Shown one piece after another: positions 46,656 through 51,922 of a DNA stretch of 64,000 bases. Position 1 is the first letter of the stretch. Each line of letters opens with the position of its first letter. The stretch is from Pseudomonadota bacterium (GTDB taxonomy: Bacteria; Pseudomonadota; Gammaproteobacteria; Burkholderiales; Gallionellaceae), in NCBI GenBank assembly GCA_021782365.1, contig JAJXVB010000002.1:124001-188000 (forward strand), written 5' to 3'. A program made the position numbers and the translations under genes. The notes below the pieces were generated by a model. That model made no database searches. It was given only the letters and a program-made list of their open reading frames with translations, and was not told the origin of the DNA.

Positions 46656-47237
46656 TTACCTCTTGTATTTGCGAACAAGGCCTATGAGCACGCCGAATAT
46701 TTCCAGCGTGCCCTGCGGGCGGATGACGGGAAAGGCAGGATTGGCAGGACGCAGTATGAATGCGCCATTTTCTCTATCCAGGGTCTTGAGCGTGAAGTCG
46801 TTGTCCACGATGGCGACCACGATATCGCCTATGTTTGCAGTCAATCGCTTTTCCACCACGGCGACATCGCCGTCCTGGATGCCGGCGTCTATCATCGAGT
46901 CACCTTTCACCGTGATGAGGGTGGTTTTGGAGGGCGTGTCGATCAGCATTTCGTCGATGACGAAATAATCGCCCTGAGTGGCTGTCACGGAGACCGGCAT
47001 GCCCGCCTGTACGGTCGATTCTGCATGCGCACGAGCAAAGAATTGCCGCGTCGGAATCCAGCTGCCGTCCGGTGTGCGCTCGATGAAATCGGCATCTGCG
47101 AGGCGCGTCAGTATGGTTTTCACCCAGGATTTGGAGGCAATGCCGAAGACCTCGCACAGCTTTGCGTAGGACGGGATGTTTTTCCAGTCGGCATAATAAT
47201 CCTGAAGTTTGCTAAGATACTCGCTGTCTTTGGACAT
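46656..47237 (-). CDS. LexA-like S24 repressor
   Basis: A 193-residue protein with an N-terminal winged-helix-like DNA-binding region (SKLQDYYADWKNIPSYAKLC, then KSWVKTILTRLADADFIERT) and a C-terminal S24 peptidase domain: cleavage site VQAGMP, catalytic serine in VKGDSMIDAGIQDGD and lysine in NDFTLKTL. The start at 47237 follows AAAGGG; an earlier in-frame ATG at 47297 lies in the promoter. The N-terminus diverges from classical LexA, fitting the unusual operators upstream, so it is a LexA-like or LexA2-type repressor rather than confidently LexA itself. Confidence 0.8.
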   Translation of the reverse strand: MSKDSEYLSKLQDYYADWKNIPSYAKLCEVFGIASKSWVKTILTRLADADFIERTPDGSWIPTRQFFARAHAESTVQAGMPVSVTATQGDYFVIDEMLIDTPSKTTLITVKGDSMIDAGIQDGDVAVVEKRLTANIGDIVVAIVDNDFTLKTLDRENGAFILRPANPAFPVIRPQGTLEIFGVLIGLVRKYKR

Positions 47238-47250
47238 GGTAAACCCTTTG

Positions 47251-47297
47251 AGAACGAACGTGCTGATCAATATAAAGAACGTTTGTTCTGTTGTCAA
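47251..47297 (-). promoter_or_regulatory. LexA-like operon promoter with two GAAC-N4-GTTC-type operators
   Basis: On the minus strand, TTGACA (47297-47292) and TATATT (47274-47269) are spaced by exactly 17 bases, a near-consensus sigma-70 promoter. A perfect palindrome AGAAC-N4-GTTCT (47276-47289) fills the spacer; a second, one-mismatch copy (47251-47264) covers the likely start point. The 25-base spacing puts both on nearly the same helix face, as expected for autorepression. Confidence 0.75.
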
Positions 47298-47381: not shown

Positions 47382-50300
47382 ATGGATGAAAGAATTGTTT
47401 TTGTCAGGACGAGCAGTGGTGAAGACGAGGCGCGGAGCAGGACGGCGCTTTTGTCCAAAGACATCAAGCGCGCCCTCCTGATGGTGGATGGCGCGTCTAC
47501 TGTCGCTGAAATCAAGAAGCGTTCATCGCCCAGCCTGCGCATTGCGCTGGATGACATGTTTGAAGAGCTGCTTAGGGATGGCTTCATACAGGACAAGGCG
47601 CGCATAGCCCATACATCCAAACTTGTTCGCCCTTCAGCGAAGAAAAGCATCAACGAAGCGGAAGAACTGGATTTTACCGCTGCATTCAGGGTGCCTACAC
47701 AGGCGCTTCTGGCGGAGGAAGCAGCAAGGCAGAAAGCTTCCGATGAGGCTCGCGATGCAAAAAGAAAGGCCGGAATAGCGGAAGAAAGAGCCAGGCTTGA
47801 AACAGCCGAAGCTCGCGCCCGCGAGCTTGCAAAGGCCGAGAAGGAGGCTGCCGAAGCGCTTAGGCTTGAGGCGGAGCGCCAGGCCAAAACGGCGGTCGAG
47901 ATGGCGCGCAGGGCTGAACAGCAGGCAGAAAAAATCAAGGCGGAGTCGCTTGATCGTGCACGCATCGTTGCAGAAGAGAAGGCGAGACTCGAAGCTGAAG
48001 TAGCCAAGCTCAAGGCGATCGCAGAATCAGAGGCCAAGGCCCGTGCAGAAGAACATGCGAAGCTGGAAGCCGAAAAACTTGCACATCTCGAGGCGGCTGC
48101 ACGCGCAAAAGCAGAAATGGCAGCCATAGAGGAAGCCGCGCGTCGCAAGGCTGATCGACAGGCCAAGGCTGCCGTTGAGGCTGCAAGGCTTGCCGAACAG
48201 CACGCAGAACAAGTCAAGTACGAAGCGCAAGCCCGTGCGCGTGCAATCGCGGAAGAGAAAGCCAGGCTTGAGGCTGAGGTAGTCAAGCTCAAGGCGATCG
48301 CTGAAGCGGAAGCTCAGGCGCGAGCCGAAGAGCGGGCGCGCATGGAAGCGGAGAGAGCCGAGCGTCGAGAGTTAGCTTCGAAAGCTAAGGCCGAGAAGGC
48401 TGCTTTGGAGGAAGCCGCGCGCATGGAAGCGGAGCGGTTGGCGAAAGAAGCCATAGAGGTCGAAAAGGCTAAAGCCGAGGAGCGCCTGCGCGCTGTAGCC
48501 GAAGAGAAAGCCAGACTGGAAGCGGAAGTGCTCAAGTTGAAGGCGGTTGCCGAGGCTGAGGCCCAGGCAAAGCGAGATGCGGAGACTTTACGCATCAAAG
48601 CCGAACAGGAAGCCGAACGCATCAAAGCCGAACAGGAAGCCGAACGCATCAAAGCCGAACAGGAAGCCGAACGCATCAAAGCCGAACAGGAAGCCGAACG
48701 CATCAAGGCCGAGCAGGAAGCCGAACGCATCAAGGCCGAACAGGAAGAACGCATCAAGGCCGAACAGGAAGCCGAACGCATCAAGGCCGAGCAGGAAGCC
48801 GAGCGCATCAAGGCCGAGCAGGAAGCTGAACGCATCAAGGCCGAGCAGGAAGCCGAGCGCATCAAGGCCGAGCAGGAAGCCGAGCGCATCAAGGCCGAAC
48901 AGGAAGCCGAACGCATCAAGGCCGAACAGGAAGCCGAACGCATCAAGGCCGAGCAGGAAGCCGAACGCATCAAGGCCGAACAGGAAGCAGAGGCTGTGCT
49001 GGCATCCGTTGTAAGGCTCAACACGGAGCATGAGGATACGGAGGAGAGCTTTTTCCTGGCGCTGAACGAATCGGTGATGAGGGTGGCGGAATGCGAAGAT
49101 GCTGACTTCAACCCCGAGACTTCTCCCGAAAGGCGCACGGTTCCGGCTGTCTTATCAGGTTGCGACAGCAGGGGCGGCAATAACGGGGTGCCCGTCGTCG
49201 AAAGAAGGACGACGACGGCAGCTGTGTTATTTCTCGATATCGCAGGGTACACAAAACAGTCAGACAGCAAGCAGCTGGAGCTGAAAGAAGAGTTCAACGG
49301 TTTGCTGACTGAAAGCCTGGCATCTCTGGGTTCGGGCGAGCGAATTTCCCTGGATACCGGCGATGGCGCCGCGATCGGATTCCTGCAGCATCCCGCAGAC
49401 GCGCTCGAATCGGCAGTGCGTTTCCGTACTAAATTGATCGCCAACAAACATTTCGATTATCCGGATCTGCGCATAAGATTCGGCATACACCTTGGGCCTG
49501 TCAGCCTGGTCAAGGATATGAACGGGCAGATCAACATGCTGGGAGATGGCATCAATAGCGCGCAACGGGTGATGAGTTTTGCAGGCCTGGATCAGATACT
49601 GGTGTCTCGCGCCTATTTCGACTTTGTATCCAGCATGAGCGATGAATACGACGAGCTTTTTCGCTACCGCGGTTCTCAGCAGGACAAGCATGGGCGAGAA
49701 TATCGCGTATACGAACTGATCGACGGTGAAGAAAATGCGCAGGCTCCGGTAGTTCAAACTCAGTCGTCGGACGCATCGGCTGGGTTTAATTTTGAAGCAT
49801 TTGATGTCCCAGATCAGCATATCGAGACGCAGAGTCAAGAGCCGGAAATCATGCCCGTTGACGGTGCGGAGCAATTGCTCGTGGATACGATCGCTTTGGG
49901 ACATGCCGATGTCGAAACCGAGCATGAGAAAATCGAGCATGAGGTTAAGGTCCCGCAGGAAAGCCTTGCGCTGGAAGATGAGGCGGATCCTTATGCGAGA
50001 GCGGATACAGAGCAATTGGCAGATGCGCAGGCGAAAAAATGGCAGGAGGCGGAGCAGCGCGCGATAAGGCTCGCCAAGGAAAGGTCGGAAAATGTGCCTC
50101 ACCAGCGTCAAAGTCAACCTGCGACAATAGGCCGGATTCAACAACGCAAGCCTCTTCCATGGGGAAAAATGCTTGCGGGTCTAATGGTGCTATGCGTGCT
50201 GGCATTGTTCATTTTGCCGTTTCTGCTTCCAATGGAAGATCAAAAAACAAGTCTTGAGCGCCTGCTGGGTTCGGAGCTGAAACAGCCTGTGCATATTGGC

Positions 50301-51344
50301 CGCCTTTCCGGGCGCATACTGCCTACGCCGCGTCTGGTATTGGACGAGGTGTCCATCGGCGATGCAAAGCAGATTCAGGTCGCCAATGCGCAGGCGAATT
50401 TTTCGATGCTGGATCTTGGAGCAATCAAGATAGTGAACAGTCTCGATCTTCGGGGCGTGGTAGTGAAGGGAGGAGGGTTGCAGCAAGCCGCTTCCTGGAT
50501 AGAAGAGATTGCAGGCAGCAAGACATACCCAATTGCGAAAATCACGCTGTCACAAGGAAAGCTGGATGCAGAAGGGATGCCCTTGTCCGATGTGGATGGT
50601 GAGATCGATTTCAGCTCACTCGGAAAATTTTCGCGCGCGCATTTGAATGCCTTGAGCCGCAAGCTTGCCGTGAATATCAGCGCCGATCCTTCGCAGAAGC
50701 TTTCGGTTTCCACAACGCTGCACGATAGTGCGCTGCCTTTTTTGCCTGACTGGTCATTCGATGATTTGAAGGCAAATGGCGAGCTGAGCCATGACGAGTT
50801 GCGCATCACTGATCTGGATGGCAGGATAAAAGGCGGGGCGATGACAGGAAATGTGCGGGTGAACTGGAGAAGTGGCTGGCGTGTCCAGGGGGACCTCGTC
50901 GCCAAAGTTGTGCCGCTTGAAAACATCAACAAGTTGTTGACCGGTGAAATGGATGGCACGGCGCGCTTTCAATCCCAGGCGGATAGCCTGTCCTCGCTTG
51001 CCGATAATGCTCTTTTCAACGGCGTTTTTGATGTCAAGAAGGGCATGATAGGCGGCGTTGATATTGTGGAGAGCACGCGTCTTATGAGTCGCGAAAACTT
51101 GCCTGGCGGTAGGACGCATTTCGATGAACTGAGCGGCGAACTGTTCTATTCCAAGGGTGGCTACAGGTTTTCCAAGATCAGCATCCGGGACAGCGTATTC
51201 CAGGCTAACGGTTCGATGACGGTCGAGGATCAGGCGATTACCGGTCGCATATTGTCGAGCCTGAAGGTGCGTTCCGGTATGCCTTCCGTGATGCTGCAGG
51301 TTTCTGGCACGGTAGACAGCCCTTCCTTGCGTGTGGCGAATTAG
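47382..51344 (+). CDS. Coiled-coil / class III nucleotide cyclase / AsmA-like membrane protein
   Basis: A 1320-residue mosaic. Residues 1-85 form a globular N-terminal domain (RIVFVRTSSGEDEARSRTAL). About 105-540 is a charged coiled coil, its last third (405-538) built of nine-residue repeats. About 605-780 is a class III adenylate/guanylate cyclase domain with the metal-binding aspartates in FLDIAGYT and LDTGDGAAIGF and the N-x3-R pair in GDGINSAQRVM. One membrane helix (about 927-951, MLAGLMVLCVLALFILPFLL) separates it from a periplasmic AsmA-like region (PVHIGRLSGRILPTPRLVLD). The purine-selecting lysine seen in many adenylate cyclases is not evident, so activity is uncertain. A lipoprotein and a YdbL-like gene follow. 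Confidence 0.8.
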   Translation: MDERIVFVRTSSGEDEARSRTALLSKDIKRALLMVDGASTVAEIKKRSSPSLRIALDDMFEELLRDGFIQDKARIAHTSKLVRPSAKKSINEAEELDFTAAFRVPTQALLAEEAARQKASDEARDAKRKAGIAEERARLETAEARARELAKAEKEAAEALRLEAERQAKTAVEMARRAEQQAEKIKAESLDRARIVAEEKARLEAEVAKLKAIAESEAKARAEEHAKLEAEKLAHLEAAARAKAEMAAIEEAARRKADRQAKAAVEAARLAEQHAEQVKYEAQARARAIAEEKARLEAEVVKLKAIAEAEAQARAEERARMEAERAERRELASKAKAEKAALEEAARMEAERLAKEAIEVEKAKAEERLRAVAEEKARLEAEVLKLKAVAEAEAQAKRDAETLRIKAEQEAERIKAEQEAERIKAEQEAERIKAEQEAERIKAEQEAERIKAEQEERIKAEQEAERIKAEQEAERIKAEQEAERIKAEQEAERIKAEQEAERIKAEQEAERIKAEQEAERIKAEQEAERIKAEQEAEAVLASVVRLNTEHEDTEESFFLALNESVMRVAECEDADFNPETSPERRTVPAVLSGCDSRGGNNGVPVVERRTTTAAVLFLDIAGYTKQSDSKQLELKEEFNGLLTESLASLGSGERISLDTGDGAAIGFLQHPADALESAVRFRTKLIANKHFDYPDLRIRFGIHLGPVSLVKDMNGQINMLGDGINSAQRVMSFAGLDQILVSRAYFDFVSSMSDEYDELFRYRGSQQDKHGREYRVYELIDGEENAQAPVVQTQSSDASAGFNFEAFDVPDQHIETQSQEPEIMPVDGAEQLLVDTIALGHADVETEHEKIEHEVKVPQESLALEDEADPYARADTEQLADAQAKKWQEAEQRAIRLAKERSENVPHQRQSQPATIGRIQQRKPLPWGKMLAGLMVLCVLALFILPFLLPMEDQKTSLERLLGSELKQPVHIGRLSGRILPTPRLVLDEVSIGDAKQIQVANAQANFSMLDLGAIKIVNSLDLRGVVVKGGGLQQAASWIEEIAGSKTYPIAKITLSQGKLDAEGMPLSDVDGEIDFSSLGKFSRAHLNALSRKLAVNISADPSQKLSVSTTLHDSALPFLPDWSFDDLKANGELSHDELRITDLDGRIKGGAMTGNVRVNWRSGWRVQGDLVAKVVPLENINKLLTGEMDGTARFQSQADSLSSLADNALFNGVFDVKKGMIGGVDIVESTRLMSRENLPGGRTHFDELSGELFYSKGGYRFSKISIRDSVFQANGSMTVEDQAITGRILSSLKVRSGMPSVMLQVSGTVDSPSLRVAN
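48594..48995 (+). repeat. 27-bp coding tandem repeat array
   Basis: Fifteen head-to-tail units encode IKAEQEAER. One unit, near 48729, is 24 bases long and lacks a codon; the last unit ends IKAEQEAEA. Silent changes (AAA/AAG, GAA/GAG, GCC/GCT) differ between units and cluster, showing several rounds of expansion. Because the unit is a multiple of three, copy-number changes lengthen or shorten the coiled coil without frameshift. Confidence 0.95.
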
Positions 51345-51362
51345 CATTTGAAAGGATAAGGT

Positions 51363-51521
51363 ATGAACAAGGTCTGGATCATTTTGACAGTCATGCTGCT
51401 TGGCGCATGCCAGACGGTTGACGTGTTCTTTCCGCAGGAGTCGGCAACCAGGGCTGCGGACAGGATCATCAGCGAGGTATGGCAGCCTGTCGGCAAACCC
51501 GCTTCGAAGGAGCTGAAATGA
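51363..51521 (+). CDS. Small lipoprotein between AsmA-like and YdbL-like genes
   Basis: A 52-residue product beginning MNKVWIILTVMLLGAC, a lipoprotein signal with lipobox LGAC (cysteine at residue 16). The mature part is only about 37 residues, with the segment VDVFFPQESATRAADRIISE. In E. coli the equivalent position holds YnbE, an outer-membrane lipoprotein that links to YdbH; the sequence is not clearly YnbE but the size, lipobox and context agree. Its stop overlaps the next ATG by four bases. Confidence 0.75.
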   Translation: MNKVWIILTVMLLGACQTVDVFFPQESATRAADRIISEVWQPVGKPASKELK

Positions 51522-51922
51522 GACTCTTCGCATATCTTCTGTTACTGGCGCTTTCATTCAATGCATGCGCGTTGGAGAACATCCAGTTCGATACGCCTAG
51601 TGTGCGGGCGGTCGAGGCGCGCATGAAGTCGCGCCATGCCGAGCTTCTGCCATACTATGTCAGCGGCGCGGTGGGTCTCAACCTCGATGGCACGATCGTG
51701 CTGCGGGACATCGCTTCGGTGCCATTGGCTGCACGCAAGCATCTAAATGAGCTTGTGAATGCGGAGAACAAGGATCGCGAAATCCTGTATGCCGAAATTG
51801 CCAATGCCAATGCGCATCCCGAATGGCAGTCACAAATTCGCAATGCATTCGCGCCTCGCTGGATAGCGCATGCACAGCGCGGCTGGTGGGTAATGAGCGA
51901 TGACGGCTGGATACAGAAGTGA
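51518..51922 (+). CDS. YdbL/DUF1318-family periplasmic protein
   Basis: A 134-residue secreted protein with a signal peptide (MRLFAYLLLLALSFNACA) and the DUF1318-like core HLNELVNAENKDREILYAEI, then RWIAHAQRGWWVMSDDGWIQ. In E. coli YdbL works with YdbH and YnbE in inner-to-outer membrane phospholipid transport. The ATGA overlap with the lipoprotein gene makes co-expression with it and the cyclase/AsmA-like gene very likely. Confidence 0.75.
   Translation: MRLFAYLLLLALSFNACALENIQFDTPSVRAVEARMKSRHAELLPYYVSGAVGLNLDGTIVLRDIASVPLAARKHLNELVNAENKDREILYAEIANANAHPEWQSQIRNAFAPRWIAHAQRGWWVMSDDGWIQK

Follow-up and report, generated by a model that had tools for sequence, protein, structure and literature searches.

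In E. coli, an inner-membrane AsmA-clan gene, ydbH (879 aa in its product), lies in one row with the gene of a small lipoprotein, YnbE, and the DUF1318 gene ydbL. Kumar, Davis and Ruiz (PNAS 2024) reportedly proposed the addition of a beta-strand by YnbE to YdbH and the prevention of YnbE multimers by YdbL. E. coli lacking both tamB and yhdP is sensitive to bile salts (PMC8593681). In Pseudomonas, the very short AsmA-like protein PA2708 (361 aa), listed under PF05359, was judged unable to span the periplasm, and the DUF748 (PF05359) protein PA4735 of P. aeruginosa was redundant with YdbH, YhdP and TamB (PMC10900882).

In this study, we analysed a window of 64 kb (the whole stretch of DNA examined) from an assembly of 2.53 Mb in 32 contigs and 93.7% complete (G000), together with 150 relatives. 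In the window, a fusion of a class III nucleotide cyclase domain with an AsmA-like region is followed by genes for a YnbE-like lipoprotein and a YdbL-like protein, in the same row as in E. coli. Unlike E. coli YdbH, the AsmA-like part of the fusion has no YdbH profile match, has less than half of the length (369 aa) and is accompanied by a predicted cytoplasmic cyclase and helix; the motif of the lipoprotein is also changed with respect to YdbH-linked lipoproteins. The best profile matches of this part are those of YhdP and AsmA (PF13116 and PF05170), although only the profile start is matched and these proteins lack the long cytoplasmic part of the fusion. PA2708 has a similarly short AsmA-like part but, with 361 aa in all, leaves no room for a cyclase and a long helix. 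In the literature library that we searched, to which this statement is limited, no description of an AsmA-cyclase fusion was found. The subject bears on the regulation and the partner needs of AsmA-clan lipid bridges, and the fusion family sets a strongly conserved cyclase domain on what is predicted to be the cytoplasmic side of an AsmA-clan protein.

Organization of the locus and of the fusion protein

The features of the locus are provided in Table 1. An AsmA-clan gene, a small lipoprotein gene and a DUF1318 gene lie on the same strand with tight spacing, which is how we defined an operon of this type. The lipobox and the DUF1318 profile (65 bits, cut-off 27) confirmed the lipoprotein and the DUF1318/YdbL-like protein as described in an earlier note on this DNA. 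The 4-base coupling proposed there applies to the lipoprotein and ydbL genes, which overlap in ATGA, but not to the fusion and lipoprotein genes, which are 18 bp apart.

Table 1. Features of the three-gene locus and its 5' neighbour (window positions).
Feature	Coordinates	Strand	Description
LexA-like S24 peptidase gene, divergent	46656..47237	-	193 aa; outside the three-gene unit
Fusion gene	47382..51344	+	1320 aa; N-domain, charged helical region (predicted), class III cyclase, membrane helix, AsmA-like region
N-terminal domain, residues 1-75	47382..47606	+	present in 52/57 homologs read (3 of the 5 exceptions are frames running off a contig end); no Pfam name
Ala/Glu/Arg/Lys-rich region, residues ~111-555	47712..49046	+	composition
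27-bp tandem repeat, 14.9 copies	48590..48988	+	within the predicted helical region
Class III nucleotide cyclase domain, residues 608-782	49203..49727	+	profile match, conserved residues
Single membrane helix, residues ~930-951	50169..50234	+	hydropathy peak
AsmA-like region, residues 952-1320 (369 aa)	50235..51341	+	profile matches
YnbE-like lipoprotein gene	51363..51521	+	52 aa; lipobox LLGAC, mature start CQTVDVFFP
ydbL-like gene, DUF1318 (PF07027)	51518..51922	+	134 aa from the ATG at 51518

This three-gene arrangement is genuine and conserved within its clade. The fusion stands beside ynbE-ydbL in four genomes (G000, G031, G061 and G004, hereafter the linked clade), with a gap between fusion and lipoprotein genes of 12 bp in G031 and 18 bp in the others, and in the same frame throughout. 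The three other proteins are 71-86% identical to that of the window over residues 600-1320, and dS exceeded 1 in most pairs of the clade.

Two artefacts were considered and discarded. A chance open frame is ruled out by the conserved homologs of the fusion, and an assembly accident at the junction with the lipoprotein gene is rejected because its position is identical in four assemblies.

The earlier reading of one frame carrying a cyclase domain with both metal aspartates (D619 and D661), a single membrane helix and an AsmA-like region was borne out. Judging by composition, residues ~111-555 are probably helical, as a coiled coil or a single helix, and the position of the cyclase after this region differs between homologs. 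Just one strong hydrophobic stretch was present (residues ~924-954), and the basic residues that precede the membrane helix suggest that its N side is cytoplasmic; with a topology based on these two elements, the AsmA-like region would be periplasmic. This region matched the YhdP profile with 20.5 bits (cut-off 46, protein scan), covering positions 15-96 of 1224, and the AsmA profile with 22.8 bits (cut-off 29.8, genome search). Among 21 fusion family members, YhdP was matched in 12 and AsmA in 9 (E<=0.01; best AsmA E 9e-9), and the AsmA cut-off was exceeded by several homologs, including those of G061, G004, G024, G033 and G009. The expected AsmA affiliation of residues 952-1320 is probable at the level of the clan, with matches below cut-off in the window protein itself, while the YdbH profile (PF11739) matched neither the fusion nor anything else in its genome. 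The omega of the region was 0.11-0.15 in the linked clade; all omega values given here were obtained by the Nei-Gojobori method and are rough estimates, since dS was often >1.

On its 5' side, the fusion is flanked by the LexA-like gene in the window and also in its nearest relatives, whereas the 3' junction is not common to them. Elsewhere, an aminotransferase-like gene often lies 3' of the fusion (in about 12 of 20 loci, according to names assigned by eye). A palindrome GAAC-N4-GTTC, the sole copy in the window, was found at 47277-47288 in the interval that separates the LexA-like gene from the fusion. Twelve other genomes also carry it at most 260 bp before the fusion, and it is missing from the remaining 44 fusion loci read, some of whose starts were unrecognised; 11 of the 13 loci bearing it also have a script-recognised divergent LexA-like gene. 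The palindrome looks like a LexA-type operator. As this putative operator is closer to the LexA-like gene, its control over the fusion is no more than conceivable. With one mismatch allowed, the classic LexA box CTGT-N8-ACAG appeared 15 times in the window, 14.6 being expected, and not between these two genes.

The cyclase domain across the fusion family

A search with residues 600-1320 retrieved 294 proteins (E<=1e-3), of which the 120 listed each cover at least 98% of the query; the source names among those listed were mostly Gallionella or Gallionellaceae. This part was matched in 118 of the 150 relatives, many of the matches being a cyclase-only paralog of ~350-490 aa. We read 57 loci, 56 from the family of the window organism and one (G125) from elsewhere in the order; the sample was not random, since 20 were chosen mostly for suspected lack of the cyclase. 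The N-domain, cyclase and AsmA parts occurred together in 31 of them, N-domain and AsmA without cyclase in 21, cyclase and AsmA in 3 (two cut by contig ends) and AsmA alone in 2 (one cut). On a tree of the AsmA region, cyclase presence must have changed 8 times, and supported branches impose 7 of these changes. Given these repeated changes and the absences among homologs, the predicted cyclase is an optional module of the family.

The Guanylate_cyc profile matched the window protein with 20.8 bits in the protein scan and 24.3 in the genome search (cut-off 21.9), and was found in 20 of 21 family members (E<=0.01), in agreement with the domain announced in the earlier note. In addition to the metal aspartates, the Asn/Arg pair (N725, R729) is present. 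Solved cyclases were matched weakly, with a best E of 4e-4 for the single domain and 1e-5 for an alignment as query. Class III cyclases canonically recognise the base by a Lys/Asp or Glu/Cys pair; the latter is visible in the alignment to 3et6. The corresponding positions in the window, assigned from alignments to solved cyclases and from what is known of the family, are Leu657 and Asn718, so that neither canonical pair occurs in the fusion cyclase, and Leu/Asn is nearly fixed in the family. Among the 120 matches listed, the window included, conservation was as follows: D619 in 119, D661 in 113, N725 in 119, R729 in 117, L657 in 119 and N718 in 118. All four catalytic residues were kept in 113.

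At least one catalytic residue was lost in the other seven of these matches (P0022, P0025, P0045, P0048, P0051, P0054 and P0101). Mycobacterial cyclases with unusual base-recognition pairs can be active. Ma1120, in which Ala replaces the Asn of this pair of Asn and Arg, is active (PMC4215837).

It is conceivable, although we lean against it, that the domain is a nucleotide-binding or dimerisation module and not an enzyme, a question independent of how the locus as a whole is read. The Leu/Asn positions, the seven homologs with catalytic losses and the lack of the domain in 23 of the 57 homologs read all argue for such a module. Against it, the great majority of the listed homologs keep the complete catalytic set, 12 cNMP-binding matches were found in the genome of the window, and in the linked clade no part of the fusion is more constrained than the cyclase (omega 0.03-0.05). 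Direct nucleotide control of the system, as suggested in the earlier note, may exist, but fusion homologs repeatedly lack the cyclase.

A cyclase paralog of 442 aa was observed in the window's genome (C28:221691-222206; L005, L124), with a likely membrane helix recognised by eye. Its cyclase domain is 51% identical to that of the fusion and has the same Leu/Asn positions; unlike the fusion, it has no AsmA match. Many of the listed relatives have similar frames (~350-490 aa).

The YdbH-like gene, the lipoprotein motif and DUF748

DUF1318 was matched in 63 of the 150 relatives. A local YdbH-like family (~645-701 aa) was matched in 49, all of them with DUF1318, and PF11739 was found in 1 of 12 of its members. 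In the 63 DUF1318 stretches (1.8 to 13 kb, some cut by contig ends), the YdbH-like gene was present in 48, the fusion in 4 and neither in 11; among the latter, G006 and G116 have a gamma-type YdbH and G114 has a YdbH-like gene ~6 kb away. The fusion is therefore unlinked to the two other genes in most of these relatives, an outcome that the earlier note had named as refuting its reading of one system. Fusion homologs occur also in genomes with no DUF1318 match. No YdbH-like match was found in the four linked genomes, which are draft assemblies in which absence is not proof.

The earlier note considered the fusion to be a shortened YdbH. The location before a YnbE-like lipoprotein and YdbL, and the AsmA-clan matches, agree with a YdbH-type arrangement. 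The shortened YdbH itself was rejected, since hhalign between the AsmA part and the local YdbH-like family gave a probability of 0.7% (no signal) and, among the 57 genomes with a fusion homolog read, 17 have a separate YdbH-like gene as well.

A YhdP tree of 16 genomes requires 3 changes of the ydbH state, of which supported branches impose 2. The sister of the linked clade, with moderate support (85/97), is the YdbH-like-positive G010, so that a loss of the YdbH-like gene would fall on the way to this clade. Of 394 AsmA positions, only 3 are both invariant within the linked clade and different in at least 75% of the 51 other homologs, and the stem of the clade measured 0.28 for the fusion AsmA part vs. 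0.29 for YhdP; hence, nothing points to a new interface.

The motif CVT[IV]N[IV] at the start of the mature lipoprotein was present in all 49 genomes with a YdbH-like gene (48 by script and G139 by eye), whereas all 9 assessable genomes that lack this gene also lack the motif, linked to the fusion or not (G062 read by eye). At this place the window lipoprotein reads CQTVDV, and all four linked genomes have the form CQTV[DN]VFFP. The comparison leaves out G066 (motif present, contig ending at the lipoprotein), G074 (contig ending within DUF1318), G141 (DUF1318 matched with 36 bits, but no lipoprotein identified), and G006 and G116 (gamma-type YdbH with gamma-type YnbE). In the nine genomes lacking the YdbH-like gene, the slot before the lipoprotein and DUF1318 genes contains the fusion in the linked clade, a dienelactone-hydrolase gene in G055 and G067, a DedA-type gene in G033 and G002, and a SodB-like gene in G062 (identified by eye in G067, G002 and G062). 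For this order, the motif result fits the strand proposal for YnbE and YdbH. Comparison of genomes that have naturally lost the YdbH-like gene with those that keep it marks this motif as the YnbE residues that may depend on it. In G062 (L099), which has no YdbH-like gene, the lipoprotein was seen by eye to be fused in frame to DUF1318.

Both small genes are under purifying selection in the linked clade, with an omega of 0.14-0.43 for ynbE (six pairs) and 0.08-0.11 for ydbL in three genomes (without G031). The DUF1318 frames are open and the lipoproteins intact in all four. In one YdbH-like-positive group, the lipoprotein omega was lower (0.06-0.16).

In the genome of the window, the AsmA-clan genes found were those of YhdP, AsmA, a DUF748 protein (C9:19051-22098; L155) and the fusion, with no match to TamB or YdbH in this 93.7% complete assembly. 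Across the 76 genomes of the genus, DUF1318 was found with the YdbH-like gene and without DUF748 in 25, with DUF748 (E<=1e-20) and without the YdbH-like gene in 8, and alone in 4 (G004, G006, G062 and G066); 4 genomes had DUF748 without DUF1318 and 35 none of the three. DUF748 was thus present in 8 of 12 DUF1318-positive genomes lacking the YdbH-like gene vs. 0 of 25 having it, although the pair test on the tree was not significant, with too few independent pairs. Regarding G002, which keeps ynbE-ydbL with no YdbH-like match, its AsmA- and YhdP-profile matches fit only YhdP and DUF748, and the fusion is matched there only once (E 3.6e-47), as strongly as would be expected of the cyclase paralog.

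Possible roles of the fusion beside ynbE-ydbL

The explanation that we favour, at somewhat less than an even chance, is that the fusion is an autonomous signalling protein whose neighbourhood is accidental or only loosely functional. It would be an inner-membrane protein of the Gallionella family, with the N-domain, the long charged helix and, in many members, the class III cyclase on the cytoplasmic side, and with the membrane helix leading into a short periplasmic AsmA groove that probably could not extend to the outer membrane unaided. The long helix probably pairs two subunits, by which the cyclase domains could form a dimer, and the membrane helix would probably couple nucleotide turnover or binding to the groove. 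A rearrangement in one clade would have put the fusion before ynbE-ydbL, where relatives have a YdbH-like gene. Long-range bridging in the window organism would most likely be due to YhdP and the DUF748 protein, and YnbE and YdbL would be retained chiefly to serve another AsmA-clan partner in trans and not the fusion. The conservation of the family with or without ynbE-ydbL, the four linked cases among 63 DUF1318 neighbourhoods, the common 5' but not 3' side and the constraint on the cyclase all agree with an autonomous protein, as does the distribution of DUF748, considered with the redundancy of PA4735 (PMC10900882). It must be noted that the slot was filled by another AsmA-clan gene and not by a random one; with 4 such genes among ~2,400 (estimated from the assembly size), the chance would be about 1 in 600 per event. 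The conservation of the junction at the divergence of the four linked genomes and the purifying selection on ynbE and ydbL also weigh against autonomy, as do the lack of a DUF748 match in the linked genome G004, the non-significant pair test and the four genus genomes with DUF748 but without DUF1318.

Alternatively, the fusion may have taken over the role of YdbH in this clade, with a YnbE-like strand, ordered by YdbL, extending the AsmA groove into a nucleotide-controlled bridge or part of one. An AsmA-clan gene in the ydbH slot, the junction and the lipoprotein form shared by all four linked genomes, the lack of YdbH-like matches in them and the selection on both small genes are in its favour, and we regard such a partner switch as possible but doubtful. 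However, the AsmA domain shows hardly any clade-specific change and no profile similarity to the YdbH-like family, and the motif is also changed where DedA-type, hydrolase or SodB-like genes occupy the slot. Moreover, 369 aa is short for a bridge, PA2708 having been judged too short (PMC10900882), and G002 keeps ynbE-ydbL with only YhdP and DUF748 as apparent AsmA-type proteins. For these reasons the autonomous protein is favoured. If a switch with cyclase control were true, a lipoprotein-capped lipid bridge would have changed its inner-membrane partner. The full version, in which YnbE and YdbL work with the cyclase-bearing AsmA protein after the loss of the YdbH-like gene and the cyclase controls outer-membrane lipid traffic from the cytoplasm, seems unlikely to us. 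Finally, YnbE and YdbL might be slowly decaying leftovers of that loss, their place behind the fusion being meaningless. The loss of the motif in 9 of 9 assessable genomes, the higher lipoprotein omega in the linked clade than in the YdbH-like-positive group and the fused lipoprotein of G062 would agree with decay, but the low omega of YdbL, the preservation of DUF1318 frames and lipoproteins throughout the linked clade and the retention of both genes in several separate lineages without the YdbH-like gene make it quite improbable.

An additional AsmA-like gene (~570-590 aa) was observed directly before the fusion and on the same strand in five other loci (L077, L078, L079, L081 and L082); the product in L077, the sole copy scanned, matched PF05170 with 65 bits.
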